DNA of 30,936 nucleotides from a virus. Of the stretch, positions 13,026 to 28,067 are shown piece after piece; the first letter of the stretch is position 1; every line of letters starts with the position of its first letter. The position numbers were made by a program, and so were the translations under genes. Under the pieces are notes generated by a model. The model was not told where the DNA came from. It was given only the letters and a program-made list of their open reading frames with translations, and ran no database searches. The DNA is taken from the IMG/VR virus record IMGVR_UViG_3300035698_035323, positions 1 to 30,936 of that record. The stretch is one strand, 5' to 3'.

Positions 13026-13042
13026 CCGTGCCTCGGCCTCTA

Positions 13043-13240
13043 TCAAACCGTTCCGTGTGGGATGGCTCGGGTGATCTTGATCCCGAGCCCTTTCTTCTTG
13101 ACTGCGTTCTTCGAGTTCAGGTAGCGGTCCGCCTCGATCTGGTCTGTCAGATCGTGTTGCTCCACGCTGCCTGCATCGCCCGAGGCCTTCTTGGGGCCTT
13201 TGGCGTTGTCGCGGATGGTGTCGTCGAGCGGTTCAGGCAT
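13043..13240 (-). CDS. Small basic head-module protein
   Basis: A 65-aa charged protein lying just before the portal. The N-terminal half is acidic and disordered (PEPLDDTIRDNAKGPKKASG). The end is better defined: DQIEADRYLNSKNAVKKKGL, then GIKITRAIPHGTV. Short proteins with an E-A-D-R-Y-L-x-S-K segment and a P-x-G-T-V end occur before portal genes in Mu/lambda-type head operons, where they may act as head completion or portal-accessory factors. This comes from pattern memory, so function is left open. Confidence 0.7.
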   Translation of the reverse strand: MPEPLDDTIRDNAKGPKKASGDAGSVEQHDLTDQIEADRYLNSKNAVKKKGLGIKITRAIPHGTV

Positions 13241-13862: not shown

Positions 13863-13912
13863 CGTCTCTGATGTCTACTGGTTACTTACCCGGCCGACAC
13901 ACTGAGTGTCGG
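13863..13912 (-). promoter_or_regulatory. Conserved intergenic element, copy A (putative phage promoter or operator)
   Basis: The 17 bases CTGGTTACTTACCCGGC (13878-13894, plus strand) are identical to 27365-27381. In both copies the hexamer TGTCGG follows after exactly 12 bases. On the minus strand this reads CCGACA, 12 bases, GCCGGGTAAGTAACCAG, upstream of the 13752 gene. In this copy CCGACAC (13894-13900) and GTGTCGG (13906-13912) form a perfect 7-bp inverted repeat. No T-run follows, so it is not a terminator. CCGACA resembles a -35 hexamer, but no clear TATAAT lies 16-18 bases away. The other shared block, CCGTCTCTG (13862-13870), is 10 bp further off here than in copy B. Confidence 0.5.
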
Positions 13913-13973
13913 GGGCTTGGCGACAAGTGCGCAGATCGTTCCGCATGTAGAACTTGATGACGACCGAAGCGGA

Positions 13974-14165
13974 CTACCTGCTGCTCGTGGAAGTCTGTTC
14001 AAAAGTCGTCATCCGCCGTCCGCAATGACGGCATTCGCGGCGTCGCATCACCCGACCACCGTGGGCCCGGCGAGTGTAGAGCACTCGGAAGTGCCGACAA
14101 CCGCAGGATGGGCATTGCAATCCACGCCTGTCCTTTGTGTTGTCGTGCTCGGCTGTTGAGGTCAT
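13974..14165 (-). CDS. NrdR-like zinc-ribbon protein
   Basis: The 63-aa protein is a single zinc ribbon: CPSC (18-21) and CRHC (45-48) separated by VLYTRRAHGGRVMRRREC, then GRRMTTFE. The spacing and the R-R-R-E-C...C-G-R-R-x-T-T-F/Y-E end match the N-terminal zinc ribbon of the regulator NrdR, without the ATP-cone domain that follows in NrdR. Such stand-alone ribbons in phages (compare Ogr/Delta late activators) may bind DNA or RNA polymerase. Its ATG follows directly after the large terminase TAG, so it is co-translated with it. A role in late transcription is inference. Confidence 0.8.
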   Translation of the reverse strand: MTSTAEHDNTKDRRGLQCPSCGCRHFRVLYTRRAHGGRVMRRRECRHCGRRMTTFEQTSTSSR

Positions 14166-16466
14166 CTACTGCCTGCTCCTTCGCAACTCTGACAGCTTGA
14201 GCCGTTGTCTTGGACGCGGCTCGCGTTGACCGAGGCCCAGCAGATTGACTCCTTGAATCGATGCCGCAACGGACGCACCGACCATGCAATCGAGCCAGTG
14301 ATTGTCGAGACCGCCAACCCGAAGCTTCCACTCATCGACGGTGCGGCCGCGTCCTTCGGTCTTGACGCGATACTCCGCCGTCAGATGCTCGGCCAGCAAG
14401 CGGTGGCGATTCGGATCACGTTCATAGAGTGAAAGGCATCCCGGATCGCCCATGGGCACCGCCAGGCGTGCGTGGATGAACGACTTCCAGTAGTTCGCAT
14501 CGAACAGCACGTGACGAACTGCCCGCTTGCCTGCCACGTTGGGGATGCGCCAGTTGTGACCGACCCGGTCACCGCGTTTGCGCTTGTACTCACTGAACGG
14601 GAGGCTCGATGCACCGACGTAGCGACCATGGCTTGGCAGGAGGACATTGGCGAACTGGCTCTGCCGGCAGAATTGGTACACGACGTCGGTCGATGTGCCC
14701 CAGTTCGCATCGATGAGGCAGCGATCGATTCGCACCCGCGCACCATCGTCGCGTTTCCACTCGCGGCTGAGCATCGTGTTGGTGAGCCGCTCGAGTCCGC
14801 TGTAGATCGCACCTTCCTGGCCTGCTCTTGGAGCAGCCCGACCGAGCGTGCGTTTCACATCGCGCAGCGTGAAATAGGCTCCGGGGGCCAACTTCTGGTC
14901 CGGCTCCGTTCCGTAATCGATCACATGCCCGGTGAAGTCGTCCGACCATGCCGCAATCAGATAGAACAGGACGTTGCCCTGCACATCAATGAACATGGTC
15001 ATGTGCGAGCAACCGATCGGCACTTCGCCACGTTTCATACCGTTGACCTTCGCCGCGATCTCATCGGCGGTCATCAGGTCGATGTCGGGCTCGTTCTCCG
15101 GCAGCGGCTCGTTCTGGTATTCGGCCCAGAAGGCTGCCTCATCTTGCAGCTTGAGATTCATCGCGTGCTGGACGGCGCTCAGTTCATCGTGATTGAACCG
15201 CTCCGGCCAGGCCACGACTGCGCCCTCGTCCATCTGCTCGCGATGCTCCCCATAGAACGCCGTCGCGGCGATGATCCCGGCGTCGTTGCGCAACCCGTCC
15301 GCTCGCAGTTCCGCATACTTGCCCCAGAGCGCTTCGTTGGCCGGGAACTCGTAGACCATCCGCGTCCGCTCACCTTGCCACTGCGGATGCTTGTCGCGAT
15401 CCAGCAGGCGATCGGCCATGTCCTCTGGGCGCACCACGGTGATCGTCATCAGCCCCGCGATCTTCTTCCCCGGTCCGGCAAGGCCGAGTATGGCTCCAGC
15501 CAGGATTCGTTCGCGGGTCGCGCATTGCGATGGCGAACGGGCGGATTCGTCCGTCTGCGGGTCGTCGATGAGCACGAGTGACGGGCGCACCGACAGGCCG
15601 TCCACTCGCTTGTGCTTCATGCCGCGGATTCGGCCCGTGATGCCGGCCACGCGAATGATCGCGCCTGATGCATTCGACTCTGTATCGCCAGACATCGTCG
15701 GCAGCACGATCTCCCGCGCCGTCCAGCCGATGTGCGTCTGCGTTCCCTGAAACAGCTGCCCGCCGGCGCGCTGGTGGATTCCCTCAAGGCAGTGGATCGG
15801 ATACACCACCTCCGGGAAGTCCTCGAGCAACAGGTCGTTGTTCTCCAACTCCGCCTTGATGGAATCGAGCATGTTCGCGGCATGCTCTTCATCGGCGCCG
15901 ATCAACGCGACGAACTCCCGGGCTCCGATGAGGATCGCCCATAGACAGGCGATCTCACAGAGCGTCGTCTTTCCGCTGCCGCGCGGCATCGCCATCGCGA
16001 AGAGCCCGCCTTCCAGAACTGCCTGTTCGATCTTGGCGATGACCTTCAGGTGATCGTCTGACCAGGCCATCGTGAACGTTTGCGGGAAGTAGGTCTCGCA
16101 GAACGAACGGAAGTCGCCTTCGGCCTGCTCCCTTCGCTGAGGATTCACGACCGTCGGCAGCTCCCCGATGTCCCGACCAGACAACGACAGCGTCTTGCTC
16201 CGCGCCAGCGCCCGCTCGCGCACTGCGTCATAGTCTGCCGGTTGTCGGTCTTCTGCATCGGCCAACGCACGGTGCCGTTCCAGCACCAGCCAGGCGACGT
16301 ACCGGATCAGGTCGATGCGCCGCTCGTCCTTCGCCGAAGCGATGCGCAGGCCGGCGCGGGTGCGATGACGGCGCAATTGACGTTCAGCGATGACCTCACC
16401 GAGCTGCGTCGAGTTCAGGAGCTGGCACAGCTCCGATGGCCGGAGTTGTCGCGGATCAGTTGGCAC
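14166..16466 (-). CDS. terL: Terminase large subunit (GpA-like) with N-terminal accessory domain
   Basis: This 766-aa motor packages DNA into the prohead. It has Walker A PRGSGKTT at 161-168, Walker B SLVLIDDPQ at 296-304, and RNase H-like nuclease acidic residues in TMFIDVQG (D494), RCLIDANWG (D586) and DNHWLDCM near the end. Similarity is strongest to GpA-type terminases (PF05876 group), which fits the lambda-type portal. Residues about 8-66 (LRPSELCQLLNSTQ to IDLIRYVAWLVLERH) resemble the whole small protein encoded just before, suggesting a duplicated DNA-binding module. The start is GTG at 16466, overlapping that small gene by 11 bp. Confidence 0.95.
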   Translation of the reverse strand: MPTDPRQLRPSELCQLLNSTQLGEVIAERQLRRHRTRAGLRIASAKDERRIDLIRYVAWLVLERHRALADAEDRQPADYDAVRERALARSKTLSLSGRDIGELPTVVNPQRREQAEGDFRSFCETYFPQTFTMAWSDDHLKVIAKIEQAVLEGGLFAMAMPRGSGKTTLCEIACLWAILIGAREFVALIGADEEHAANMLDSIKAELENNDLLLEDFPEVVYPIHCLEGIHQRAGGQLFQGTQTHIGWTAREIVLPTMSGDTESNASGAIIRVAGITGRIRGMKHKRVDGLSVRPSLVLIDDPQTDESARSPSQCATRERILAGAILGLAGPGKKIAGLMTITVVRPEDMADRLLDRDKHPQWQGERTRMVYEFPANEALWGKYAELRADGLRNDAGIIAATAFYGEHREQMDEGAVVAWPERFNHDELSAVQHAMNLKLQDEAAFWAEYQNEPLPENEPDIDLMTADEIAAKVNGMKRGEVPIGCSHMTMFIDVQGNVLFYLIAAWSDDFTGHVIDYGTEPDQKLAPGAYFTLRDVKRTLGRAAPRAGQEGAIYSGLERLTNTMLSREWKRDDGARVRIDRCLIDANWGTSTDVVYQFCRQSQFANVLLPSHGRYVGASSLPFSEYKRKRGDRVGHNWRIPNVAGKRAVRHVLFDANYWKSFIHARLAVPMGDPGCLSLYERDPNRHRLLAEHLTAEYRVKTEGRGRTVDEWKLRVGGLDNHWLDCMVGASVAASIQGVNLLGLGQREPRPRQRLKLSELRRSRQ

Positions 16467-16686
16467 GGGCCGCCATCTCCTTCACGAGCCACGTGGCGTA
16501 GTGCACGAGGTTGATCGTTCCGTCTCCGTTTGTCGGAGCGCCAGAATCGATGTCCGCCGCGATCTGCTCGACATCGATGCGGATGCCACCCGCCGACGTG
16601 AGCAAGCGTGCCGCGTCGGTGGCGGACAGCGCCATGGGATTCAGTTGCCCTGGTTTGACAGCTGATTCGGGTGCTGGCTCCGACAT
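16456..16686 (-). CDS. Candidate small terminase-like protein
   Basis: This 76-aa protein begins at ATG 16686 behind GAGGG; an in-frame TTG at 16704 would add 6 residues. After a disordered start it has one helical module (ALSATDAARLLTSAGGIRID, then TINLVHYATWLVKEMAARA). The pattern L-x2-[ST]-[DE]-x2-[RQ]-LL-x-S ... I-[ND]-L-[IV]-x-Y-x-[TA]-WLV-x-E is shared with residues 8-66 of the large terminase encoded next, and the genes overlap by 11 bp. By position (first gene of the late arm, before terL) and this homology it may be the DNA-recognition subunit of packaging. It is smaller than most TerS proteins, so the assignment is tentative. Confidence 0.65.
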   Translation of the reverse strand: MSEPAPESAVKPGQLNPMALSATDAARLLTSAGGIRIDVEQIAADIDSGAPTNGDGTINLVHYATWLVKEMAARAN

Positions 16687-16814
16687 CACGCCGCCCTCTG
16701 CCAACAGTGGCCCACATTCAGGGCGAAGTTGCCCACATCTGGCGAATGCTCGCGAAGTCGCCTTGATGTGTTCGCGCGGTCATGCCCTTGTGTGTGCGAA
16801 AGGACCACATCGCC
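16687..16814. promoter_or_regulatory. Divergent intergenic region with 21-bp-spaced direct repeat
   Basis: This 128-bp stretch separates the late arm (minus) from the plus-strand cassette and should hold at least one promoter for each. It contains an imperfect direct repeat: GCCCACATTCAGGGCGAA (16710-16727) and GCCCACATCTGGCGAATG (16731-16748), starting 21 bp apart, which is two helical turns. The motif GCCCACAT is identical in both. Such spacing suits a regulator binding twice on one face of the helix. A good ribosome site (AAAGGA) precedes ATG 16815. No clear -35/-10 pair can be named on either strand. Confidence 0.45.
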
Positions 16815-17141
16815 ATGACGAACACGAACGAACAACGCGACCGGGAACTCGGAGGGATCGCCAAGCGCGCCCTCGACATCCCGACGCTGAAGACCCGCAG
16901 CAGCGACAGCCTGGACTTCCACGAGGTTTCGGTCTGGGGCCTTCTCGAAGCGCTGCGCCTCGCGTACTCGGCCGGATACGAACAGGCCATTACCGATCGC
17001 AAGCCCAACACCGTCCCGCCCGCGGGCATCTGCCCACGCTGCGGCGAGGACGACATCGACCAACTCGTATGGGACGACGCCGGGACCAGCGTGACCTGCC
17101 AGCGCTGCGGAACGAACTACGTCGTCATGCCGCTCGGCTGA
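16815..17141 (+). CDS. DUF6900-like domain plus zinc-ribbon protein
   Basis: A 108-aa protein, first gene of the plus-strand cassette. ATG 16815 is chosen because AAAGGA lies 9 bp upstream; an in-frame ATG at 16782 lacks a site. Residues about 9-55 (ELGGIAKRALDIPTLKTRSS, then DSLDFHEVSVWGLLEALRLA) match the DUF6900 pattern, a small domain of unknown role common in mobile-element proteins. The C-terminal part has CPRCGEDD and CQRCGTNY, a Cys4 zinc ribbon that may bind nucleic acid or protein. The gene runs opposite to its flanks and leads a set of four closely spaced genes with strong ribosome sites. Confidence 0.85.
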   Translation: MTNTNEQRDRELGGIAKRALDIPTLKTRSSDSLDFHEVSVWGLLEALRLAYSAGYEQAITDRKPNTVPPAGICPRCGEDDIDQLVWDDAGTSVTCQRCGTNYVVMPLG

Positions 17142-17162
17142 ACGCCGCCAAGGAGAACTGCC

Positions 17163-17489
17163 ATGAACACCAACGTCAACGACCACGTTCGCGAGATCGC
17201 ATCCCTGCAGCGCCAGATCGCTGACCTCCTCGACGCCGCGGGCCGGAAGGCGCGCGAGCTCGAGGTCGCCATGAGCGACAAGGCCAACGAACTCGAAGAG
17301 GCGATCACCCGCCGGCGCAGCCCGGCCAACGCCGAAGACGTCGCCGCTGCATTCACCGAGTACCGCGTCAATGCCGGGGAGCTCAGCAGCCGCCTGAACG
17401 ACGCCATCGAACGGCGCGGACACCGCGTCTTCCCGACTCCATACGACCCGATTCGATCGACGTGGGCGCTCGTTGAGAGCCGCCCATAG
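17163..17489 (+). CDS. Coiled-coil hypothetical protein
   Basis: A 108-aa soluble protein with AAGGAG 8 bp before its ATG. Residues about 8-48 are a heptad-patterned helix (IASLQRQIADLLDAAGRKAR, then ELEVAMSDKANELEEAITRR). The remainder is a second helical part (AEDVAAAFTEYRVNAGELSS) and a short proline-containing end. No enzyme motif, cysteine or membrane segment is visible. It sits 21 bp after the zinc-ribbon gene and 33 bp before the HARE-HTH gene, so one transcript is likely. Function is unknown; oligomerisation or binding to a cassette partner is possible. Confidence 0.8.
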   Translation: MNTNVNDHVREIASLQRQIADLLDAAGRKARELEVAMSDKANELEEAITRRRSPANAEDVAAAFTEYRVNAGELSSRLNDAIERRGHRVFPTPYDPIRSTWALVESRP

Positions 17490-17522
17490 CCATTTCCACT
17501 CTGTTTCCCGAAAGGAACTGCC

Positions 17523-18134
17523 ATGCAGAAGAACGACATCAAGATCGGAACCACGTACACCGCCAAGATCACGAACCGCGTGGTCCCCGTCCGTATCGAT
17601 GCGGAGAACCCGGGCGGCGGCTGGGACGCGACCAACCTGACCACGAAGAAGAAGGTCCGCATCAAGAGCGCGGCCAAGCTCCGGAGTGAGTACCGCGAGA
17701 CCATCAAGGCGGACGAGGCTGCGGATCAGGAGAACGCTCGCGTTCGCGACGAACGCAAGGCGAGCAAGGACGGCCAGACCGCGCGCGAGCGCGCGATGAG
17801 TCAGACCGCCAAGACGAAGAAGGCCGTGACTTCCGCGAAGGCGGCCACCAAGGCCAAGACCACGAAGAACGCGGCACCGGCCAACACGGCGAAGCGCATG
17901 GGAATCCTCGACGCCGCGGCGCAGATCCTGGCCAAGGCGAAGGAGCCGATGGCGTGCAAGGCGATCGTCGAACAGGCCATCGCCAAGGAGCTGTGGACCA
18001 CCAGCGGCAAGACGCCGCACGCCACGCTCTACGCCGCGATCATTCGCGAGATCTCGAAGAAGGGAACGGATGCACGCTTCGAGAAGGTCGAGCGCGGTCA
18101 ATTCCGCGCACTGCCCCGGACGAAGGGAGCGTGA
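17523..18134 (+). CDS. HARE-HTH (HB1-like) winged-helix protein with basic linker
   Basis: A 203-aa protein in three parts. Residues 1-57 form a small beta-rich module (IKIGTTYTAKITNRVVPVRI ... GGGWDATNLTTKKKVRIKSA) of a type seen beside this domain in planctomycetes. Residues about 60-125 are a charged, Lys/Ala-rich linker resembling histone H1 tails. Residues 127-198 are a HARE-HTH winged helix: GILDAAAQILAKAKEPMACK, IVEQAIAKELW, SGKTPHATLYAAIIREI and RFEKVERGQFRAL. This domain is known from ASXL/RpoE-delta-like factors and restriction systems and is thought to link DNA or transcription machinery. ATG 17523 has AAAGGA upstream. It probably binds DNA and may be a nucleoid- or transcription-modulating protein; that is inference. 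Confidence 0.88.
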   Translation: MQKNDIKIGTTYTAKITNRVVPVRIDAENPGGGWDATNLTTKKKVRIKSAAKLRSEYRETIKADEAADQENARVRDERKASKDGQTARERAMSQTAKTKKAVTSAKAATKAKTTKNAAPANTAKRMGILDAAAQILAKAKEPMACKAIVEQAIAKELWTTSGKTPHATLYAAIIREISKKGTDARFEKVERGQFRALPRTKGA

Positions 18135-18137
18135 TCC

Positions 18138-18494
18138 ATGAACAGCGCGCCTGACCGAATCGAGACGTTCACCATCGCAGCCGACCACCTGGTCCGCAGC
18201 GTGGTCCCGCTGCGAGGCAAACCGTACGAACATCGATGTCCGCGCAGATCCTACGAGGACATCGCGCACGCGGCGGAGTTGTTCAGCAACCAACTGGCCG
18301 ATAGCGGATTCACGCTGGAGGAGCTCGCCACCGCCGCCAACATTCCCAGTACGCAGACGGCGGTCGCTCTGGCCTTCATGAAAGAACGCGGCTGCGTCAT
18401 CACCCAGTTCCGGCGCAACTACGCCGCGGGGCGATGCATCTTTGAGGACGCGATGATCGAATACCACGCTCTTCGGGAGAAGGACCCCGAGTAG
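18138..18494 (+). CDS. Conserved 118-aa hypothetical protein with HTH-like segment
   Basis: Last gene of the plus-strand cassette, starting 3 bp after the HARE-HTH stop with GGGAG upstream. Residues about 30-50 (KPYEHRCPRRSYEDIAHAAE) lead into a helix-turn-helix-like region (GFTLEELATAANIPSTQTAV, then ALAFMKERGCVITQ), ending RRNYAAGRCIFEDAMIEYHA. The helical part resembles the winged-helix layout of MarR-like regulators, and I recall similar proteins in planctomycete genomes. It is probably a small DNA-binding or regulatory protein acting with the cassette. No enzyme motif is present. The 3' end faces the methylase gene 8 bp away. Confidence 0.85.
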   Translation: MNSAPDRIETFTIAADHLVRSVVPLRGKPYEHRCPRRSYEDIAHAAELFSNQLADSGFTLEELATAANIPSTQTAVALAFMKERGCVITQFRRNYAAGRCIFEDAMIEYHALREKDPE

Positions 18495-18502
18495 ACCGTA
18501 CA

Positions 18503-19870
18503 TCACTCTGAATCCTCCCCAGCCTCGACCGCGGTCGGGGCTTTCTCTCCGGCGTCAGTGTCTGCAGCGACGCGCTCCGCCTTGCCGCCAGTGAACTCCT
18601 CCCAGCGCTGCACGATCACATCGCAGTAGGCCGGATCGATCTCCATCAGGAACGCATGCCGATCGGTTTGCTCAGCGGCGATGAGCGTCGAGCCCGATCC
18701 GCCGAACAGATCGAGCACGTTTTCACCAGGTCGTGACGAATACTGGATCGAACGCACCGCCAGTTCGACGGGCTTCTCGGTGAGATGCACCATCGACTGC
18801 GGGTTGACCTTCTTGACGTGCCAGAGATCGGTCGCGTTGTTCGGGCCGAAGAACTTGTGCCCGGCTCCCTCACGCCAGCCGTAGAAGCAGATCTCGAACG
18901 CGCCCATGAAGTCCTTGCGCGTCAGCACCGGGTGCTGCTTGTCCCACACGACACCCTGGCTGAAGTACAACCCCGATGTGTTCAGCGGCGCGGGGTAGTT
19001 CCCGATGTTTGCGTAGCCACCCCAAATGAAAAACGATCCGCCTGGCTTGAGGACACGCGCAATGTTGCCGAACCAGGCGAGCAACATCGCGTCGAATGCC
19101 TCGTCCGTGACGAAGTCGTTCTCGAGTGGCCGGTCCTTCGCTCGCATCTTCCGGTGCGTCGCCTTGGCCTTTTCCGGGTGTCGTGCGAGATCAAACTTCT
19201 GGTGGTGTTTCTTCTCCGGCGCGGTGAATGACGAGTTCCCGGCGGCGATGGCGTTGTTCGATCGCGGCTCGACCTTCACGTTGTACGGTGGATCGGTGTT
19301 GACGAGATCGATCGTCGCGCCATCGAGCAACCGATCGACGTCAGCCTCACTCCCGCTCTCGCCGCACAGCAGGCGGTGATTGCCGAGTACCCAGAGATCT
19401 CCCGGCTGAGTCACCGGATCATCCGGCGGCTCCGGCACCGAGTCGGGATCTGTCAGGCCCTCCGTGACGCCAACGTCGCCGGCCATCAGCTTCGCCATCT
19501 CATCTTCGTCGAAGCCCAGCAGCGACCAGTCGATCCCAGCGCTCTGCAACTCAGCGATCTCGATCGGGAGCAACTCCATGTCCCAGGTAGCGAGTTCGCC
19601 GGTCTTGTTGTCGGCGATGCGATACGCTCGAATCTGCTCCGGCGTCAGATCTGCGGCGACATGCACCGGCACCTTCTTGAGTTCGAGCTGCTGCGCCGCC
19701 CGGAATCGCGTGTGGCCGCAGATGATCACGTCATCGGGGTCGACCACGATCGGCTGGCGAAATCCGAACTCACGAATCGACTCGGCGACGGCACTCACGG
19801 CGTCATCGTTCTGGCGAGGGTTCTTGTCGTAGGGCTTGAGTTCATCGATGGGGCGTTGAACGACTTTCAT
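18503..19870 (-). CDS. ParB-like nuclease domain fused to DNA methylase
   Basis: The 455-aa protein has two domains. Residues 5-95 form a ParB/sulfiredoxin-like fold (LKPYDKNPRQND, ICGHTRFRAAQQL with GHTR at 52-55, IADNKT). Residues about 160-440 are a beta-class N6-adenine/N4-cytosine methylase, in which DPPY (193-196) precedes DLFGGSGST (387-395), the SAM-binding FxGxG motif. HLTEKPVELA (362-371) is the usual motif before the SAM pocket. This ParB/MTase fusion is widespread in phages, where it may protect phage DNA from restriction or mark it for packaging. The 5' end overlaps the small upstream gene by ATGA. Recognition sequence is unknown, and no cognate endonuclease is seen. Confidence 0.95.
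   Translation of the reverse strand: MKVVQRPIDELKPYDKNPRQNDDAVSAVAESIREFGFRQPIVVDPDDVIICGHTRFRAAQQLELKKVPVHVAADLTPEQIRAYRIADNKTGELATWDMELLPIEIAELQSAGIDWSLLGFDEDEMAKLMAGDVGVTEGLTDPDSVPEPPDDPVTQPGDLWVLGNHRLLCGESGSEADVDRLLDGATIDLVNTDPPYNVKVEPRSNNAIAAGNSSFTAPEKKHHQKFDLARHPEKAKATHRKMRAKDRPLENDFVTDEAFDAMLLAWFGNIARVLKPGGSFFIWGGYANIGNYPAPLNTSGLYFSQGVVWDKQHPVLTRKDFMGAFEICFYGWREGAGHKFFGPNNATDLWHVKKVNPQSMVHLTEKPVELAVRSIQYSSRPGENVLDLFGGSGSTLIAAEQTDRHAFLMEIDPAYCDVIVQRWEEFTGGKAERVAADTDAGEKAPTAVEAGEDSE
18522..18548 (+). terminator. Candidate terminator of the plus-strand cassette
   Basis: GCCTCGACC (18522-18530) pairs with GGTCGGGGC (18533-18541), giving 9 pairs with one wobble (in practice the innermost pair opens to a four-base CGCG loop). 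TTTCTCT follows at 18542-18548. The hairpin lies 28 bp beyond the stop of the last plus-strand gene, inside the 3' end of the opposing methylase gene. The T-run is interrupted, so termination may be partial. It would prevent read-through against the early arm. Confidence 0.5.
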
Positions 19871-20088
19871 GGCGTGGCCTCCGTGCTAGGGGAATCGGGG
19901 CCGACCTTGGCCTCCGGGTTGATGTTCATGACGAGCTTCGCCCACGCCTCCGGACTTGGGCGACGTTGGGCCGTGTGGCCGAGGTTGCGGATGGTGGTAG
20001 CGATGGCCAGTCCCATGCCGGCCGCGACACGGGCCAACGTCGTAGCCCGTTGCCCGAGCGCGAGATTGGACGGAGATTGGACAGCCAT
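19867..20088 (-). CDS. Small hypothetical protein before the methylase
   Basis: The 3' end of this frame is credible because its TGA overlaps the methylase ATG as ATGA. The frame stays open up to 20406, but the upstream part is low-complexity sequence over the repeat region and does not look like protein. ATG 20088 gives 73 residues: MAVQSPSNLALGQRATTLAR, then VAAGMGLAIATTIRNLGH and PSPEAWAKLVMNINPEA. The start lies inside the 11-bp tandem repeat, so the true start may be further downstream. Possible roles include a small replication or regulatory factor; no family is recognised. Confidence 0.45.
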   Translation of the reverse strand: MAVQSPSNLALGQRATTLARVAAGMGLAIATTIRNLGHTAQRRPSPEAWAKLVMNINPEAKVGPDSPSTEATP

Positions 20089-20108
20089 TGGACAGCTGTT
20101 GGACAGCG
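20064..20108. repeat. Four tandem 11-bp iterons (TTGGAC core)
   Basis: TTGGAC occurs at 20066, 20077, 20088 and 20099, exactly 11 bp apart. The unit is close to GATTGGACAGC, with small changes in each copy. The unit is not a multiple of three and runs through the start of the small minus-strand gene, so the conservation is at DNA level rather than protein level. One repeat per helical turn suits cooperative binding of an initiator or repressor along one face of DNA. Confidence 0.75.
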
Positions 20109-20451
20109 GTGTGGTATGGCCCAGGCGAGCCGCCAAACCGGACCGGCCAACCGAAAGAAAGTCTGTCGTGGTCGGCGGCTGTTCCCGCAGGCGTCTCCTG
20201 CGCACACCTGCCCGGGAGTACCTATTGAACCTTCCTTCCCTTACTTCCTTCACCCACCCCCTCTCACACACGTACGCGGGCATTTCACGTGCGCGGGGGT
20301 ATGCGGGTGAAGGAGGGAAGTAAGTAGAGAAGTTGTTGTTATTCCTATTTCTAGGGCTATTCATGGCCAAACTTCCTTCACCCCTTCCTTCACCTTGCTT
20401 CACCATCCTTCACCCCAAAACCGCCACATCAGCGGGCTTCCTTCACTTCCT
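20109..20451. other. Gene-poor, repeat-rich region: candidate replication origin
   Basis: No convincing gene fills this stretch between the primase stop and the small gene before the methylase. TTCACC occurs at 20249, 20377, 20389, 20399 and 20409, and again (inside or beside the primase 3' end) at 20451 and 20461, with a TTCACT at 20442. Spacing is mostly 9-12 bp. An inverted copy GGTGAA lies at 20306, and the two sides form an imperfect inverted repeat (about 20239-20255 against 20305-20325). An AT-rich patch (about 20326-20357, including TTGTTGTTATTCCTATTTCT) lies between. Iterons, inverted repeats and an AT-rich patch beside the primase gene are typical of phage origins; the function is inferred. 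Confidence 0.55.
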
Positions 20452-22770
20452 TCACCTTGTTTCACCCCCTCCAATCAGGCGGTAGACCAGCCCGGTCCGG
20501 CCGCTCGTCGGGACCTGAACCGCTTCCAGATCCCCGCGCTGGATGAGCGTTTCGATCAGGTCGCGGAAGTCCTTGGCTTTGATCTTCATGCGTTTGAGCA
20601 AGACCTGATGGGACAGTTCCATCCCCGGCGCATCGCGCAGCTTCTCCATCACCTTGAGGCACTCTGCGTGGAACGGGTTGTCTGCCACATGGCTGGTCGC
20701 CATGAAGAGCATCCGCCGCGTCTGGTGCAGCACGAAGCCCGAGGCCCAGCGCACGGCATCGGCGCCAATGCGTGGTGACTCGTGGTTCTCGCTGATCGCA
20801 TGCAGCAGCGCAAGTTTGCGCACCTGCTCGCTGACGCGTCCCCACACTGTCGTGCCCACCGGATCGCTTCCAGCCTCTGCCGTGGCGTACTCGCTTTCAG
20901 CTTCCTCGCGCGTCTCAACGATCAGGCGCCTGGCCTCATCCGTGTGCTTGACCACCGTCGGCACCGGGTGCCAGTTATCCAGATTGCCCCGTCCCGGCCG
21001 GTAGGCGGACCACCAGCGGGCGGTCTCAAGCACGCGCGTCGGCAGATCACAGATGCTCGGCTCCTGCCCCGTGCCGCGCTGACCTGCTTCGAGGATGATC
21101 ATGCGAGCGAAGAAACCGTTGGTGAGCATCCGCTCGCTGAGCGCTTCGTAGTAGTGGTTGGGAATGGCGGTGCCGAAGATGACCAGGTTCGGCTGGTTGA
21201 TGACGCCGGGCGATTCCTTGCCCGCCTTGCGGCGCATGGGAAAGACGCTGTTGGCCGACGAATACATGGTCAGCAGCGTGCTCATGATCGCTTCGTGCCG
21301 GGCGTCTTTGGCCTTGTTGATCGACTGGAGCATTCCGTCGATCTCGTCGGTCTGAAAGAGCATGCTCGGCGTCTGGAAGAGTGCATCCTGTATGCCCTCG
21401 CCCGAAGCGAACCGTTCACCGAGTCCATCGGCGAGGCCAACCTCGTGGACGATGCGTGTGTTGATCTTGCGTGGCCAGTCCTTGCCGGCCGAGGAGTGGG
21501 CCAGACCGAGCAGGTAGAAGTTGGTGCGGTTGTCGCCGGAGTCGCGCACCTTGCGGCCGGCGAGAAACGACAGCAACGAGATCGCGCCACAGAACGCCAT
21601 GACCGGGTTTGGGTACGGCGCGGTCGCAAGACAAAAGTCCATGACCTCGGCGACAAAGCCGGGAATGTTCAGCATCTCGGTTGGCATCGGGCCCGGATCG
21701 GCGATGTCGGTCGGACATTCGCCGGATTGGTCATTGTTCGACGAACTTGCGCCGGGTGCGGCGGACATTCCCACAAGGGCCGAGATGTCCACACCCGTGG
21801 CATGGTCGGTCAGAGAATTCAGGGGGTCGCTGCCGAAGCCAGCGGATCGCAGAGACCGTGCGGCCTGCTCGAAATCTCCGCTGCAGGTGAGCCATGTGTA
21901 GAGCGAGAACGGCGAGTATGCCTGGTTCGGTTCAAACGGCGCCGCGTTGGACGAAAAGACGTAGAAGACCCGGTCCTTGAGCGTGGCGGACATGCCCGAG
22001 CTCTTGCCGGGGCGCCGCCAATACTCGTTCTTTCCGTCCTTGGTGCGAACCCATCCGTGTTGTTCAAGCAGTGTCCGCACATCTCCGCGACGGTTGAAAT
22101 CATCGCCGGGCCTGTCGGCATTCTCTGGCGGAGGTGCGCATTGTCCGCCCGACTGTGCGCCTGTGAGGCGGACATTGGCCGACATCGTCGGACCATTGAC
22201 CACCGGCGGCACATGTTCGTTCAGCTCCCACGCCGACTGCAGGAGCGCGTCCCGCTCTGCTTCGGTCAACACCGGTGGATCGCACAGGTCACCCTGAACC
22301 ATCTCGTATCCAACCGTCGGCGCGCAAAGGAACAGGCCTCCTTCACCGCGTGTCTCGATGAAGGTGACGACCTTCTTGCCGTCGCGGCGCTGAGCCAGCT
22401 TCAGGTTGCCAGACACCGACACCTCACAGCGGTAGATCGCATGCCGGCCACCGGACTGGGTGGATGCGATTGCAAGCCGGTCACGCAGCTCCGCAGGAAT
22501 GCAATCCCACCATGCAGCGAACAGCTCGCCACCGACATCGAAGTCGATGATCTCCAAGTTGTTCGATGCCTGGCCGCAGAGAATGCAGACGGCGTCGTGG
22601 CCGTTGGCGAACCATGCCGACACTTCGGCCTCCGTAGGCCGTTGCTTTTGATACTGCTTCCACCGACCCACGGCGGGACGCTTTTCGGCCCGGCGCGCTG
22701 GCAGCACGCAGAGACCGGCGGCGAGGTAGTCCGTGGCAGCGTGATGAAGGGCGCTGTGGCAACCAATCAA
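20452..22770 (-). CDS. Prim-pol / DUF3987 primase-helicase
   Basis: The 772-aa protein combines two replication domains. Residues about 10-190 are a bifunctional primase/polymerase domain (PF09250 type): LPARRAEKRPAVGRW, the metal-binding pair D76/D78 in IIDFDVG, GGRHAIYR (H110) and RGEGGLFLCAPT (141-152). Residues about 220-310 (LLEQHGWVRTKDGKNEYWRR ... YVFSSNAAPFE) are the usual linker of phage primases. Residues about 370-690 are DUF3987-like, with a degenerate Walker A GLAHSSAGKD (422-431) and acidic LFQTDEID (471-478). It should prime, and perhaps unwind, phage DNA. The start is a TTG overlapping the helicase stop as TTGA. An origin candidate lies directly after it. Confidence 0.93.
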   Translation of the reverse strand: MIGCHSALHHAATDYLAAGLCVLPARRAEKRPAVGRWKQYQKQRPTEAEVSAWFANGHDAVCILCGQASNNLEIIDFDVGGELFAAWWDCIPAELRDRLAIASTQSGGRHAIYRCEVSVSGNLKLAQRRDGKKVVTFIETRGEGGLFLCAPTVGYEMVQGDLCDPPVLTEAERDALLQSAWELNEHVPPVVNGPTMSANVRLTGAQSGGQCAPPPENADRPGDDFNRRGDVRTLLEQHGWVRTKDGKNEYWRRPGKSSGMSATLKDRVFYVFSSNAAPFEPNQAYSPFSLYTWLTCSGDFEQAARSLRSAGFGSDPLNSLTDHATGVDISALVGMSAAPGASSSNNDQSGECPTDIADPGPMPTEMLNIPGFVAEVMDFCLATAPYPNPVMAFCGAISLLSFLAGRKVRDSGDNRTNFYLLGLAHSSAGKDWPRKINTRIVHEVGLADGLGERFASGEGIQDALFQTPSMLFQTDEIDGMLQSINKAKDARHEAIMSTLLTMYSSANSVFPMRRKAGKESPGVINQPNLVIFGTAIPNHYYEALSERMLTNGFFARMIILEAGQRGTGQEPSICDLPTRVLETARWWSAYRPGRGNLDNWHPVPTVVKHTDEARRLIVETREEAESEYATAEAGSDPVGTTVWGRVSEQVRKLALLHAISENHESPRIGADAVRWASGFVLHQTRRMLFMATSHVADNPFHAECLKVMEKLRDAPGMELSHQVLLKRMKIKAKDFRDLIETLIQRGDLEAVQVPTSGRTGLVYRLIGGGETR

Positions 22771-24455
22771 AACGGCACCTCATCATCGGCGAAGACGTAC
22801 TCGGGTAAGTCATCACCGTCCCGTTCATCAGAGCCATCCAGCCGCGGCGGGATCGACTCGAGTTCATAGTTCACGATGCGGTCGTACTGTTCACCGGCGC
22901 TGCGGCGCACCGTGATCGATGATGTCTCGCAGATGCTGCCACGCTCGCAGATGTCCACAGCCTCGTCGGTGTTCTCCGGCACCGGCTCGCGGCTCCTCTT
23001 CCGCCACCACTGTTCGGCCTTGGTTCGCGCGTATCCGGTGTGCTCGAAGCAGATCCATTCCGATACGTGCTCGCTCAGTCCGATGCGGTATTCGACGCGC
23101 ATGGAGCGGGGATGAGCCGGGTCCGCGCCGCGCTTGGTGTGGACGCTGTAGTAGACATCGCTGACGCGATGGATCGTGTCTTCGGTTTGCCCGGTGAGCA
23201 CGCCTGCGGTGCTCGCGCGGTCATCATGTTGCTCGCGCTGCGGCGGTGGGAACTCGTAGCCACACTCTGGACACCTGGCGTAGGCCGCATGAATGATCGC
23301 TTGGCATTCCGGGCATTCCTTGGCCGGTGCATCACCGTCGCCCTGTCCCGGTTCCTCGACGCGAAGGTCATCGACCGGACCGTGCCGGACGACATTGCCG
23401 CCGAAGTCGAGCACAAGGCAGTCGGCCTTGCCCGGATGCAACCGAAACCCACGACCAACCATCTGGTAATAGAGGCCGGGTGAAAGCGTGGGCCGGAGCA
23501 TCGCCACACAGTCGATATTTGGCGCATCGAACCCGGTCGTGAGCACATTGACGTTGCAGAGGTAATTCAGGCCGCCGCGCTTGAAGCGAGCGAGCAGGTC
23601 GTCGCGTTCAGCAACGGGTGTCTCGCCACAGACGAATCCACAATCGCACCCATGTCGATCCTCGAGTACCCGAACGATGTGCCGACCGTGAGTGACTCCG
23701 GAGGCGAAGATCAGCACCGCGGTGCGATCGCGCGTCTGTTCGACAATCTCGGCGCATGCGGCATCGACCAGCGCGTCTTCGTCCATCAGGTCTTCGACTT
23801 CACCTGCGATGTACTCACCACCCCGAACATGCAAGTTCGTGGTGTCCGCTCTGCTCTGCCCCGCCTTGGTGCGCAGCGGAGAGAGAAAGCCCTGCACGAT
23901 GAGTTCCTTGACCCCGATCTCGTAACAGACCCGATTGAGGAAGTGATCCTCGCGGCAGATGATGCCGGTTGCCATCCGGAATGGCGTCGCGGTCAGGCCA
24001 ATGACGCGAACGCGCGGATTCACCACGGCCGCGTCAGCCAGGAACTTCCGGTACATCCCATCGCCTTCCGGCGGAATGAGGTGTGCCTCGTCAACGATGA
24101 TGAGATCGAACGGCTCGAAGTCGCAGGCGCGGCGATACACCGACTGGATGCCGGCGACGATCACCTGGGGGTCGGTGTCGCGGCGCTTCAATCCCGCCGA
24201 GTAGACGCCGACATCAAGATCGGGCGCGATCGCCTGGAGCTTGTCCACTGCCTGTTCGAGCAACTCCTTGACGTGTGCCAGGATGAGGACGCGCCCATTC
24301 CACACATTGACTGCATCTCGGCAGATCGTGGCCATGACCGGTGTCTTACCACCAGCGGTAGGGATGACGATGCACGGGTTGTCATCGTGATCCCGGAGAT
24401 GCTGGTAGACCGATTCCACCGCTTCGGACTGGTACGGACGGAGTTGCATCGCCAT
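22767..24455 (-). CDS. Superfamily 2 DEAH-box helicase with zinc ribbon
   Basis: A 562-aa SF2 helicase. Walker A is IPTAGGKT (31-38), motif II is DEAH (122-125), motif III TATP (155-158), and motif VI QMVGRGFR (331-338). Residues 381-398 form a Cys4 zinc ribbon (CPEC ... CPEC). The last 130 residues (EYRIGLSEHVSEWICFEHTG ... WWRKRSREPVPENTDEA) are a C-terminal domain often attached to phage replication helicases of this type. It probably opens DNA for replication or recombination beside the primase and RusA. The ATG overlaps the RusA stop as TGATG. Confidence 0.93.
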   Translation of the reverse strand: MAMQLRPYQSEAVESVYQHLRDHDDNPCIVIPTAGGKTPVMATICRDAVNVWNGRVLILAHVKELLEQAVDKLQAIAPDLDVGVYSAGLKRRDTDPQVIVAGIQSVYRRACDFEPFDLIIVDEAHLIPPEGDGMYRKFLADAAVVNPRVRVIGLTATPFRMATGIICREDHFLNRVCYEIGVKELIVQGFLSPLRTKAGQSRADTTNLHVRGGEYIAGEVEDLMDEDALVDAACAEIVEQTRDRTAVLIFASGVTHGRHIVRVLEDRHGCDCGFVCGETPVAERDDLLARFKRGGLNYLCNVNVLTTGFDAPNIDCVAMLRPTLSPGLYYQMVGRGFRLHPGKADCLVLDFGGNVVRHGPVDDLRVEEPGQGDGDAPAKECPECQAIIHAAYARCPECGYEFPPPQREQHDDRASTAGVLTGQTEDTIHRVSDVYYSVHTKRGADPAHPRSMRVEYRIGLSEHVSEWICFEHTGYARTKAEQWWRKRSREPVPENTDEAVDICERGSICETSSITVRRSAGEQYDRIVNYELESIPPRLDGSDERDGDDLPEYVFADDEVPF

Positions 24456-25054
24456 CAGGAGGGCAACTCCACGATCTCCACGATGGCCCTTCCTCCCTTG
24501 ATGACCTCGCCGCGCTCAATCTCGAGCCGATCGATCTGGCCGTCATCGTGGTAGATGCGCGCGTGCTCCAACGAATCGAGCAACGCCTTCATGCGGTTGT
24601 CGATGTCGATCGCGCGGCGCGTGGGAGGCTGGAGGACAACCCGTACATGCAGCCGACCATCCGGCGGACTGGAGCTTTGATCACGAAGGAGGGCGCACAC
24701 ATTCTTGCGATACGCTCTGCCTTCGCGGCTGATCACAACCCGGCACCCGCGACCGGCCCGGAAACCGTGCCCGCTTCCTCTTAGCGGAATCGACCGCCAG
24801 TAATGATTGACACTCGGTGGCCAGGGGAGGTGAAGGATGAGCGCGGCACAGGCCCCCGGGGCATCGGCGCAGTTGCCGGTGTTGATCCGCTCGGGGTCGC
24901 GGGGACGGTTCATTGACATTGGCCCGGTTGGGGATTCAGCCGGAGGCCTGTGCGCGCGAGGCGCGTGTTCGTCACCGCTCGGACGCGCCGACTGCCGCAC
25001 GCGTGCCGCATCTCTTCCTTCTCGGCTCGGGGCCGAAGACTCAGAATCGCTCAT
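24455..25054 (-). CDS. rusA: RusA-like Holliday junction resolvase
   Basis: The 199-aa protein has a disordered N-terminal extension of about 70 residues, followed by a RusA domain: LPWPPSVNHYWR (76-87), VVISREGRAYRKNV, then D150, D152 and K156 in the AIDIDNRMKALLDSL segment and D170/D171 in YHDDGQI. RusA cuts four-way junctions that form in phage replication and recombination. The usual family length is about 120 aa, so the extension is unusual. An internal start at M46 or M48 is possible, but ATG 25054 has GGAGA in front and lies 3 bp after the previous stop. Confidence 0.93.
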   Translation of the reverse strand: MSDSESSAPSREGRDAARVRQSARPSGDEHAPRAHRPPAESPTGPMSMNRPRDPERINTGNCADAPGACAALILHLPWPPSVNHYWRSIPLRGSGHGFRAGRGCRVVISREGRAYRKNVCALLRDQSSSPPDGRLHVRVVLQPPTRRAIDIDNRMKALLDSLEHARIYHDDGQIDRLEIERGEVIKGGRAIVEIVELPS

Positions 25055-25057
25055 GCG

Positions 25058-25510
25058 TCACCGTCTCCACGGTGGGGTGCTGTTCTGTGCCTGCTGAGGT
25101 TGGCCTTGTGATGCTTCCTTTGTCGCGTATCCCTTGATCTCGTTGACCAGATCGCCCGTGTCCTCGCGCTTCTTCACTTTGACCGTGATCTGGACCGGGA
25201 GATTGTGCAGTTCCACGCTGTCGTTCGGTGCCATCACACCCACCGCGTGGCAGATCGCCGACAACTCGGAGCGGGCAATCTGCACCGCCGTCTGATTCGG
25301 GTTCTGCAGATTCAGCCGAGCCCAGAGGATGCGATTCTTGTACTCGCCATCGAGGATTGTGAATGCCAGTTGCAGGTAGCTGCCGTTGCCGCTCTTGGTC
25401 GGCTTGGTCTCCGACTCGGTGATCGCGGCGATGTACTTGCCCGCGGGGATCGCGTCGAAAGTGGTCGAGGGGTCTACAGTCCGTGCGTCAAAACCATTCA
25501 GATCAGCCAT
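25058..25510 (-). CDS. DUF669-family ssDNA-binding-like protein
   Basis: The 150-aa protein starts at ATG 25510, behind AGGAG; an in-frame ATG at 25528 would place the ribosome site inside the coding part. It has the DUF669 pattern: ADLNGFDARTVDPSTTFDAI, PAGKYIAAITESETKPTKSG, YLQLAFTILDGEYKNRILWA, LNLQNPNQTAVQIARSEL and a PVQITVKVKKRED strand, with a Gln/Pro-rich tail ending PPWRR. These are treated as phage ssDNA-binding/OB-fold proteins, and the acidic or disordered tail recruits partners in SSB. It follows a Sak4-like gene, forming the usual recombination pair. Confidence 0.9.
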   Translation of the reverse strand: MADLNGFDARTVDPSTTFDAIPAGKYIAAITESETKPTKSGNGSYLQLAFTILDGEYKNRILWARLNLQNPNQTAVQIARSELSAICHAVGVMAPNDSVELHNLPVQITVKVKKREDTGDLVNEIKGYATKEASQGQPQQAQNSTPPWRR

Positions 25511-26324
25511 CCGTGGAGTCTCCTTCATTCGTGGTGCTGGGTGTGGGGGAGGTCGGCCGTGTCGAGGGCGTGTCAGTCATTGCGGCCATGAGCGAAGGCC
25601 ATGTGAGAGGCAGCTCGGCCGGAAGGCCGTAGCGGTTCTTCGCGGTGCATGAAGGACATCCGACGCAACGCAGAATGCGCTCGCCGCCATCCTGACCGAG
25701 CGCGACGGCGATGGAACGCGTGCGGTTGAAACCCGCGTCTTCGCTCTCGGTGCGGAACTTCCGCGTGGCAAACAGGACGGCATCGCACCATTCAGTGATC
25801 AGTGCCGAGGCGTGTTTGTGCAGACGCGGCGAGTACCGGTCATACGCGACCGACTCCGGGTCATCGAACTTCTCAACCTTGGCATGCGCCAGGAGCACGA
25901 CAGCCATGCCCCGGTCGTTGCGCAGCGCATCGAGTCCATCGAGGACTTCACGCCACTGGGTCAGGGCGTGCGTGTAGCCCTTGGCATATCCGCCGTCCGC
26001 CTTCTCGATCGATTTCACGCCGTACTCGCGGCACACGTCATCCCAGGCGAGTCGCTCGAGCCAGTCGAGAGAGTCGATGACCACCGTCTGGAACTCGTGT
26101 TCCTCCGAATAAAGCGCCGTCAACGTCTTGATGACATCGCTGAAACTCGTCGCCAGTGGGAACGACGCGCAGTCGATCTGGTCCAGGCCATCTTCGGTCT
26201 GAACGAAGATCGGGTTCGGTGCCTGGGATGCGATCGTGGACTTGCCGATCCCCTCGGTTCCGTAGATCAGCAGTCTCGGTGGTGTGTGGCGACGGCCACT
26301 GCGAATTTGTTTCAGTAATGACAT
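25503..26324 (-). CDS. Sak4-like RecA-fold ATPase (phage recombinase)
   Basis: The 273-aa protein belongs to the AAA_24/Sak4 group of RecA-like phage recombination proteins. Walker A is GTEGIGKST (22-30), Walker B is TVVIDSLDWLE (80-90), and GMAVVLLAHAKVEKF near 145 is a sensor-like strand. A CPSC/TAKNRYGLP segment near 225 is typical for the group. In related phages it anneals or exchanges single strands with the help of the DUF669 protein and a 5'-3' exonuclease, both of which are encoded next to it here. The C-terminal 25 residues are Thr/Ser/Pro-rich and disordered. Confidence 0.92.
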   Translation of the reverse strand: MSLLKQIRSGRRHTPPRLLIYGTEGIGKSTIASQAPNPIFVQTEDGLDQIDCASFPLATSFSDVIKTLTALYSEEHEFQTVVIDSLDWLERLAWDDVCREYGVKSIEKADGGYAKGYTHALTQWREVLDGLDALRNDRGMAVVLLAHAKVEKFDDPESVAYDRYSPRLHKHASALITEWCDAVLFATRKFRTESEDAGFNRTRSIAVALGQDGGERILRCVGCPSCTAKNRYGLPAELPLTWPSLMAAMTDTPSTRPTSPTPSTTNEGDSTDG

Positions 26325-26379
26325 CGTTGTTCCTTTGTGATCGGGAAGTTCATGTGTATTTCGCAGGACCGATGTCCAA

Positions 26380-26443
26380 TGGCAGGTGTGGGAGTCGAAC
26401 CCACCAGCCGAGGCTTATGAGGCCCCAGTCGCCCGGCCCTGCC
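26380..26443 (-). tRNA. tRNA-like gene, anticodon CAT, with shortened D-arm
   Basis: On the minus strand a near-complete cloverleaf can be folded. Acceptor GGCAGGG (26443-26437) pairs with ACCTGCC (26387-26381), 6 of 7 pairs. Anticodon arm is GGGGC CTCATAA GCCTC with anticodon CAT (Met or lysidine-modified Ile). The variable loop has 5 bases, and the T-arm is GTGGG TTCGACT CCCAC, a perfect match to the consensus. Only 10 bases (CCGGGCGACT) lie between acceptor and anticodon stems, where about 19 are usual. There is no room for a normal D-arm. The 3' CCA is not encoded. It lies between exonuclease and Sak4 genes, in operon sense. Functional status is uncertain. Confidence 0.6.
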
Positions 26444-26506
26444 GAAGTGCGCCCGACGGGGTGGTCGTCGCGTGGACTCACCACAAGCCGTTCGGGCGCT
26501 GAATGT

Positions 26507-27316
26507 TCAGGCCACATCAAGGACGCGAACCTCCTCGTATCCGGTGGGCCAATGATCGCGCTGGTGGCACTCCAGCCATCGACGAATCGCAGCGGCGTTC
26601 TCGCGCTCGGCGATGGCCAACGTGTCGTCGCTGATGCGCCACACGCCGCAACGGAATGGTTCACGCTTCTCGACAGCAACAAGGTGGACGGGGACTGGCT
26701 GGTCACCGCAAGACTGCGCCAGGACGGCCCGGTAGAACGCCAGTTGCCGGTGATAGCCGTACCGGCGAGCGTCCGACTCGAACCAAGTCAGGTCGTCACA
26801 GGTCTTGAAGTCCACAATCCCACGGTGCGGATGCACCCAATCGATTCGAATCTGACATGGCGTCCCGCAATAGTTGTCGCGCACAACACCTTCAGCCCGG
26901 CCATGCAGCAGAAGGTCAGCGGCCTCAGTGTTTACGGCCACGCCCGATGCAATCTGCTCGATGAGCTGCACCTGATCGTGCGAAAGCACCGGCTTGCCCT
27001 GGGCCTTGGCCCACTCGACAAACGCCTTAGTGTTTGTCCCGAAGGGCTTGTTGGTCTTGGCGTTGATCGGCCCGCCCATCGCGAAGGCCGCTTCGTACAC
27101 ATCACGGCCTTCGAGGATGCGAACATGAGCCGCCCGGCCGACGAGATATGCCGGTGATTCCCTGTCCGCGATGAGACCGAGTGACTTCTTGCGGTGAAGC
27201 CAGGGGCATTTGATGAAGTCCAGGAGTTGATGGCTCGATAGGAATCGACTCGCTTTGGCGTGGTACTCCTCAGCGGGTTCAACTTCGAGGATGTTCAGGT
27301 CGATCGCCAGGTCCAT
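26507..27316 (-). CDS. PD-(D/E)XK exonuclease (RecE/DUF3799-like)
   Basis: The 269-aa protein has the phage exonuclease fold. An early helix-turn (FLSSHQLLDFIKCPWLHRKK) precedes GRAAHVRILEG with candidate H64. The metal site follows as IRIDWV (D159), GIVDFKTC (D169 and K171) and YHRQLAFYRAV (Q191). In RecE-type systems this enzyme digests one strand from a double-strand end so that the annealase (here the Sak4-like ATPase) can act. It starts a gene set running down to the primase, with conserved element copy B 49 bp upstream. ATG 27316 is chosen because it precedes the intact domain. Confidence 0.9.
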   Translation of the reverse strand: MDLAIDLNILEVEPAEEYHAKASRFLSSHQLLDFIKCPWLHRKKSLGLIADRESPAYLVGRAAHVRILEGRDVYEAAFAMGGPINAKTNKPFGTNTKAFVEWAKAQGKPVLSHDQVQLIEQIASGVAVNTEAADLLLHGRAEGVVRDNYCGTPCQIRIDWVHPHRGIVDFKTCDDLTWFESDARRYGYHRQLAFYRAVLAQSCGDQPVPVHLVAVEKREPFRCGVWRISDDTLAIAERENAAAIRRWLECHQRDHWPTGYEEVRVLDVA

Positions 27317-27357
27317 TGCGTTGTCTCGCTTTCAAGTCACCGAAGCAGCCTGCCCAG

Positions 27358-27399
27358 GCCGTCTCTGGTTACTTACCCGGCGCTGGGACAGACTGTCGG
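27358..27399 (-). promoter_or_regulatory. Conserved intergenic element, copy B (putative phage promoter or operator)
   Basis: CTGGTTACTTACCCGGC (27365-27381, plus strand) is identical to 13878-13894, with TGTCGG (27394-27399) at the same 12-base distance as in copy A. The palindrome GACAG-A-CTGTC (27387-27397) overlaps it. CCGTCTCTG (27359-27367) matches copy A as well but directly joins the 17-mer. On the minus strand it lies 9 bp after the sigma-like gene and 42 bp before the exonuclease start. It may be a promoter served by the phage sigma factor, or a repressor/activator site. Confidence 0.5.
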
Positions 27400-27407
27400 A
27401 GAGAGGA

Positions 27408-28004
27408 TCACGCCAGGTAGCCGTTGAGCCCCTTGTCCTCGAACACCGCGCGGATCTTTGCGAGGTAGTTGTCATAGAACGTGGCGCGCGGCACTTCGAG
27501 TTTGCGGGCGACTTCCGCGATGGGCATGACAGCCAACAACTCGGCAGCCTCACTCAACTCCGGCGGCAACTCGGCCAGCACCGTGTTGATGTCGCGATGC
27601 AGATCGGCACGCTCCTCGGCCGGTCGCAGGTGTTTGCCGGTGCGCAGATCGTGATCATCTTGGCTGATCGTGGCGACGCGCTGCGCGGGCGTCTCTTGAT
27701 CGCCAGTGTTGATCTCTTCGTTGAGCGAGCAGTCCTCACGGCGACAGTCACGCATCTTTGCCAGGCGATCGCGAAGCAGCTTGCTGATCTTCCGCTCAAC
27801 CAGGCGGGCGACGAACGTGTTGTGGGTCGCTTTGCTTGGATCGAACTTCGGCAGACGCTCGAGCAGGTCCGTGATCAGATCCTGTTCGATGTCGGCGACA
27901 TCGTCATTCGTGTAGCCGGCTTTGCCGACCAACTGCCGAGCTTTGTGGTGAACGACTTCAAATGCGTACTCGGTAAGTTCTTCGTGCTTTCGATTGGTGT
28001 CCAT
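27408..28004 (-). CDS. Sigma-70-family-like factor
   Basis: ATG 28004 is preceded by AGGAGGTCCAA, an excellent ribosome site, giving 198 aa. Residues about 12-85 resemble sigma region 2: FEVVHHKARQLVGKAGYTND, DVADIEQDLITDLLERLPKF, then a TFVARLVERKISKLLRDR helix. Residues about 136-190 resemble region 4 (LHRDINTVLAELPPELSEAA, PIAEVARKLEVPRATFYDNY), a helix-turn-helix that would contact a -35 element. Size and lack of region 3 fit ECF-like factors. A phage-encoded sigma at the head of the recombination operon could switch host polymerase to phage promoters. Candidates for its targets are the two conserved elements in this window. Confidence 0.85.
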   Translation of the reverse strand: MDTNRKHEELTEYAFEVVHHKARQLVGKAGYTNDDVADIEQDLITDLLERLPKFDPSKATHNTFVARLVERKISKLLRDRLAKMRDCRREDCSLNEEINTGDQETPAQRVATISQDDHDLRTGKHLRPAEERADLHRDINTVLAELPPELSEAAELLAVMPIAEVARKLEVPRATFYDNYLAKIRAVFEDKGLNGYLA

Positions 28005-28067
28005 TTGGACCTCCTGTTGGCCGGGAGGCGTCGTGTGGGAACCAGTCGATGCAGCGATCGCGCACGC

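Follow-up and report, generated by a model that had tools for sequence, protein, structure and literature searches.

Matching elements before the exonuclease and head operons of a phage genome are probably promoters read by a neighbouring sigma-like protein

Phage-encoded sigma factors with promoters of their own are an established kind of regulator: the factors of lytic phages (SPO1 gp28 and gp33/34, T4 gp55) and the sigma-like activator of the PBSX late genes steer the RNA polymerase of the host to phage-specific promoters that lie ahead of gene blocks. Among mobile elements, the closest documented parallel that we found in the literature is SigN (ZpdN) of the Bacillus subtilis plasmid pBS32, the sigma factor of a prophage-bearing mobile element, which directs host RNA polymerase to promoters of that element and activates its own gene, as shown by Rend-seq and in-vitro transcription, and whose regulon is reported to exclude the putative prophage region of pBS32 (PMC6751061). 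The viral DNA analysed here (IMG/VR record IMGVR_UViG_3300035698_035323, 30.9 kb, hereafter the window) carries two matching intergenic elements, one before its exonuclease gene and one before its head genes, and, next to the former, a gene for a sigma-like protein. We consider it very probable that both elements act as promoters within a single phage regulon, each with CCGACA as its -35 box and TAAGTA as its -10 box, separated by an 18-bp spacer. The extracytoplasmic-function (ECF)-like sigma factor whose gene lies immediately upstream of one promoter would join the host RNA polymerase, and the sigma-bound polymerase would start the exonuclease/replication operon and the head operon together and, in some relatives, an integrase/excisionase operon as well. 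Sigma factor and promoters would have changed together in each phage lineage, leaving co-resident prophages with different promoter spellings.

The window contains two exact copies of GCCGGGTAAGTAACCAG, each on the minus strand and preceded by CCGACA at a distance of 12 bp: at 13878-13894 before the head genes (copy 1) and at 27365-27381 before the exonuclease gene (copy 2). The chance expectation for the 17-mer, estimated from dinucleotide shuffles, is 0.01, and no further site with up to three mismatches was found anywhere in the window. The initial annotation, which had reported 17 identical bases and a hexamer at the same 12-base distance at two intergenic sites in one orientation, was thus exact, and the gene context agrees with its placement of minus-strand gene blocks (the exonuclease set and the head genes) behind the two copies and of the upstream copy right behind a sigma-like gene (27408-28118). 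Copy 2 is located between the stop codon of that gene (27408) and the exonuclease gene (27316), and copy 1 in the gap that separates a zinc-ribbon gene (13974) from the opening gene of the head operon (13752). On the basis of sequence, profile and identity between the two copies, the -35 hexamers were assigned to 27394-27399 and 13907-13912 and the -10 hexamers to 27370-27375 and 13883-13888, for the exonuclease and the head operon, respectively, all on the minus strand. From the spacing, transcript starts are predicted near 27362 and near 13875. A profile built from relatives, which for the window-like class reads CCGACA-18-TAAGTAAC, matches the window at these two sites only, with 40.1 and 37.4 bits (next best 3.5), and gave no match on the reverse strand of the compared regions or in shuffled sequences.

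The closest relative, G001 (IMGVR_UViG_3300037755_001185, 55.4 kb), is 80-94% identical in DNA across most of the window. It holds both copies at the same two loci, where the initial annotation had proposed to look, and the same profile finds the equivalent two sites with 40.1 and 38.6 bits (next 5.0); as the flanks are also alike, this conservation alone is weak evidence. The first 1.3 kb of G001 (L009, 1-1269) correspond, in inverted order, to genes that the window has downstream of the head promoter, which suggests that the contig is chimeric or includes the remnant of a second prophage. Beyond the window, the exact 17-mer was found in IMG/VR in G001 and in one unrelated contig (L002/G002), which was rejected as a chance occurrence: the site scores 11.9 bits on the relatives' profile, and no sigma, exonuclease or terminase homologue was present in the 20 kb read. 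The annotated phage collection contained no close relative by DNA.

More distant relatives were collected by terminase and exonuclease searches, which yielded 80 and 62 viral loci, and with an exonuclease profile, which yielded 80 loci in bacterial genomes with titles nearly all from Planctomycetota, many of them Phycisphaerales. The gene directly upstream of the exonuclease is sigma-like in 100 of 143 loci, and all five of the remaining loci that were opened have such a gene next door, divergently transcribed. At divergent-sigma loci (L195, L198, L201, L205, L223), the shared intergenic region upstream of the exonuclease contains several short inverted repeats, e.g. TCACGTGA and GACATGTC, probably the operator cluster of a lysis/lysogeny switch. 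The sigma stop codon is directly followed in most loci by a version of the element, and the head-side copy lies between the terminase and the head genes. The spelling varies among phages, yet is equal at both places within one phage.

This pairing was quantified as the best ungapped match between exonuclease-side and head-side regions in 43 phages, a set that includes near-duplicates. Own pairs scored 19.5 on average, compared with 10.5 for foreign partners and 10.5 for the reverse strand, and none of 20,000 permutations exceeded 13.1. Matched pairs (score at least 17) were found in 27 of the 43 phages. Both copies lie on one contig in the window, G001, the other viral contigs and the complete chromosomes of Planctomycetes bacterium syqfu (CP087563) and Planctomycetales bacterium ZRK34, the latter a host of one such prophage; in at least G066 and G073 they are apparently on different contigs of one draft genome, and for several further pairs from draft genomes the assignment relied on distance and accession. 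All 27 phages with a matched pair have the sigma gene beside the exonuclease, and none of the four phages with an exonuclease relative and no sigma gene has a matched pair (Fisher p 0.015).

Position-wise identity between own copies was determined for 22 pairs anchored on the -10 box. It amounts to 0.88 in the -35 hexamer, falls to the background level of 0.27-0.55 in the middle of the 18-bp spacer, reaches 0.98-1.0 across the -10 box, a peak that is partly by construction since the copies were anchored there, and stays at about 0.8 up to the expected start site, against 0.26 in a shifted-register control; the -35 peak is free of anchoring. The elements therefore have two boxes at constant spacing around a variable spacer, as expected of promoters, and their intergenic position upstream of operons in a single orientation, with profile matches at only two sites each in the window and G001, is likewise that of promoters. 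Judged by these features, the two elements are almost certainly twin promoters of this Planctomycetota virus, before its DNA-processing and its capsid genes.

Among sigma-70-family proteins, region 2 reads the -10 box and region 4 the -35 box. Across the collected phages, the more alike the sigma proteins, the more alike the elements, also once exonuclease identity is accounted for (partial rho 0.46, p < 1/3000), and none of 297 sigma pairs below 35% identity shares an element, despite a mean exonuclease identity of 63-65%. Resolved by region, -10 similarity shows a partial correlation of 0.63 with sigma region 2 and 0.02 with region 4, -35 similarity one of 0.42 with region 4 and 0.21 with region 2, and spacer similarity follows neither, with the reservation that the phages are related and these correlations therefore are not independent trials. 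The region-wise pattern survives permutations and the removal of whole clusters, and the preference of the -10 box for region 2 is retained in 99% of cluster bootstraps. It is the strongest evidence for the sigma-like protein as reader of the element: because the -10 box covaries with region 2, the -35 box with region 4 and the spacer with neither, the neighbouring sigma protein is the likely reader. The suggestion of the initial annotation that the element is a phage-specific promoter served by this protein is strongly supported by the pairing, the box anatomy and the region-wise covariation.

The elements could instead be promoters read by a host sigma factor, with the phage protein acting elsewhere, as -35 boxes such as CCGACA or CTGACA resemble the GACA of host consensus promoters. 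Against a host reader stand the lack of matched pairs in phages without the sigma gene, the region-wise tracking of the phage sigma and a standard sigma-70 promoter scan that was empty at both element sites. A scan for intrinsic terminators was empty there as well. The chromosome of the syqfu strain bears on the same point: it contains nine matched prophages with at least five element types, and since these unlike types are matched within each prophage, a single host factor is unlikely as their reader. We regard promoters of a host sigma factor as very unlikely. For the phage-encoded reader, RNA polymerase binding, transcription initiation, the timing during induction and the lack of cross-talk between sets are what we infer from the comparison of sequences.

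Further copies of the element extend the regulon in some relatives. Third copies at L186:4599, L187:4000, L196:6285 and L204:6306 precede integrase or excisionase operons, and others were found at L250:4549, before a ParB-like gene, and at L245:19923. With third copies mostly before integrase/excisionase genes, the regulon would span excision, replication and particle assembly. That Planctomycetota prophages carry fast-diversifying, mutually orthogonal sigma/promoter systems, which let co-resident prophages induce separately and are driven by competition among co-resident phages, is an idea we put forward tentatively, as one that may well not hold.

The sigma-like gene is annotated at 27408-28118 (minus strand), with the true start probably near 28004, corresponding to a protein of about 198 aa. 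Its assignment draws on PHROG, Pfam, profile and structure-model comparisons. The window protein is matched by PHROG 1740 (RNA polymerase sigma factor, E 4.7e-10), Sigma70_r2 was detected in 45 of 50 homologues and Sigma70_r4_2 in 9 members of the family, and the family profile finds RpoE in the PDB at E 5.4e-7. In structural comparisons of an AF2 model (predicted local distance difference test score, pLDDT, 88), the top matches are all sigma factors. Region 2 of the model superposes on sigma structures at 2.0-2.8 Å, and the C-terminal helices align with the region 4 domains of SigD (3vfz) and SigF (8jzt; Z 7.5, 2.1 Å, 61 residues), a Z near 8 not being decisive alone for a helical protein. 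A whole-protein Foldseek search with the model gave only E-values above 0.001, though each top match is a sigma factor. The layout is ECF-like, with regions 2 and 4 and without regions 1.1 or 3, and by sequence profile and model the protein is accordingly classed as an ECF-like member of the sigma-70 family. This phage family is very diverged, with identities to the window protein down to about 21%. The closest match among annotated phage records, a hypothetical protein of Wolbachia phage WO with 28.7% identity (MN180251.1:26899-27327), is possibly a distant member.

Together with the anchoring on the -10 box, several observations weigh against a sigma-driven regulon with paired promoters. Twelve of the 43 phages have a sigma gene and gave no match in the compared regions; several of the unmatched phages have a reverse-strand gene inserted after the terminase, and in unmatched G024 a match between the copies is visible by eye beyond the stretch that was compared. 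One pair alone is clearly unlike, that of G021 (L124 and L169), whose exonuclease copy has the CAGATATAG spelling and whose head copy has that of the GGTTATGTAATAAG type; the two spellings are both known from the syqfu prophages, and G021 is a mosaic. The preference of the -35 box for region 4 is less secure than that of the -10 box for region 2, being retained in 84% of cluster bootstraps. The window protein by itself scores 20.7 bits (E 3.7e-4) for Sigma70_r2, below the curated cut-off of 24, and is recognised via its family.

Inverted repeats at the two copies raise the question of a dimeric repressor or activator that coordinates the two operons from operators, as considered in the initial annotation. 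The repeats described there, a perfect 7-bp one in copy 1 and an 11-bp palindrome in copy 2, are present in the window, but do not characterise the element in other phages. A longer inverted repeat, confined to the exonuclease copy, brackets the -10 box with a 5' arm at 27383-27399 and a 3' arm at 27340-27357 (minus strand); the arms covary within the window's subclade and have no counterpart at head copies. A bracketing repeat is found in the same place in L098, L099, L102, L112, L113, L114 and L176, possibly an operator or a terminator of read-through from the sigma gene. As the function shared by both sites, a dimeric regulator is not supported, on several counts: the conserved part GCCGGGTAAGTAACCAG is itself no dyad, no conserved dyad common to both copies was found, each copy has a repeat of its own that is missing at head copies and from the corresponding copies in most relatives, and such an operator would not be expected to show two boxes at a fixed 18-bp distance around a variable middle. 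We consider an operator highly improbable as the common role of the elements.

The same hairpin could mark a structured RNA leader, antiterminator or attenuator, before the two operons. At the exonuclease copy the arms pair and covary in the window, G001, L099, L102, L112, L113, L114 and L176, and own arms pair with about -23 to -38 kcal/mol, compared with about -15 to -18 kcal/mol for foreign partners. Head copies, in contrast, pair no better than foreign partners (p 0.29), the hairpin is missing from most exonuclease copies outside the subclade while the element is still there, and an Rfam search returned no family match. An RNA element was consequently rejected as the shared function and is scarcely credible as the explanation of both sites; the covarying hairpin may be an extra layer at one locus, added to the promoter pair proposed here.

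All genes of the window that are described here lie on the minus strand, in the order sigma-like gene, RecE/exonuclease VIII-like gene, Sak4-like annealing protein, helicase and others, followed by terminase, NrdR-like zinc-ribbon gene, a 157-aa gene, portal and capsid. The exonuclease (26507-27316; PHROG 412, E 4.2e-43; Pfam DUF3799, PDDEXK) is the first gene of the DNA-processing operon. Just before the head promoter lie the gpA-type terminase large subunit (14166-16466; PHROG 38, E 1.1e-38; GpA_nuclease) and the zinc-ribbon gene (13974-14165); behind it, the first gene of the head operon (13279-13752) encodes 157 aa without a match in family searches, and next come portal (11526-13046) and capsid (9488-11551). 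The imperfect dyad AAGTTCTACATGCGGAACGATC forms a second motif at 13943-13963 (minus strand), right after the zinc-ribbon gene and ahead of the head promoter. Many relatives have it in their head regions too, with clade-dependent spelling (e.g. GTTCCAGTATTGGAAC), and it is mostly missing where the zinc-ribbon gene is missing, as judged from phages read by eye, the automated dyad scan having detected it only partly; it is possibly an operator of the zinc-ribbon protein or a cos-type site. Four loci have a tRNA gene (anticodon CAT) downstream of the element at the head locus (L255:4222-4294, L275:4077-4149, L282:2063-2135, L256:4086-4156), and in L275 and L282 its 5' end coincides with the predicted transcript start.

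Our literature searches turned up no account of such promoters for phages of Planctomycetota, and the co-diversified, apparently orthogonal sigma/promoter sets reported here look new. They provide a sequence-level handle on gene control in phages for which the literature searched holds no characterised promoters. The dozens of natural sigma/promoter pairs, several of them in one cultured host, would allow to learn how regions 2 and 4 select the -10 and -35 boxes, and are material for orthogonal expression tools. Compared with the described systems, the likeness to SigN is that of a mobile-element sigma factor serving promoters of the same element; SigN belongs to a Bacillus host and is proven experimentally, whereas the present system is known by comparison, has an ECF-like sigma factor and places its putative promoters before phage replication and head operons. 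The SPO1, T4 and PBSX factors are likened to it by mode of action; unlike them, the present proteins match the ECF/RpoE type in regions 2 and 4, and one sigma factor apparently serves replication, structural and sometimes excision operons. With the ECF (group IV) factors RpoE and Mycobacterium SigH they have the two-domain layout of region 2, linker and region 4 in common, but differ from these in being phage-borne and extremely diversified, with -10 boxes such as TAAGTA, TAGGTA or ATGTAG and an 18-bp spacer between the hexamers.

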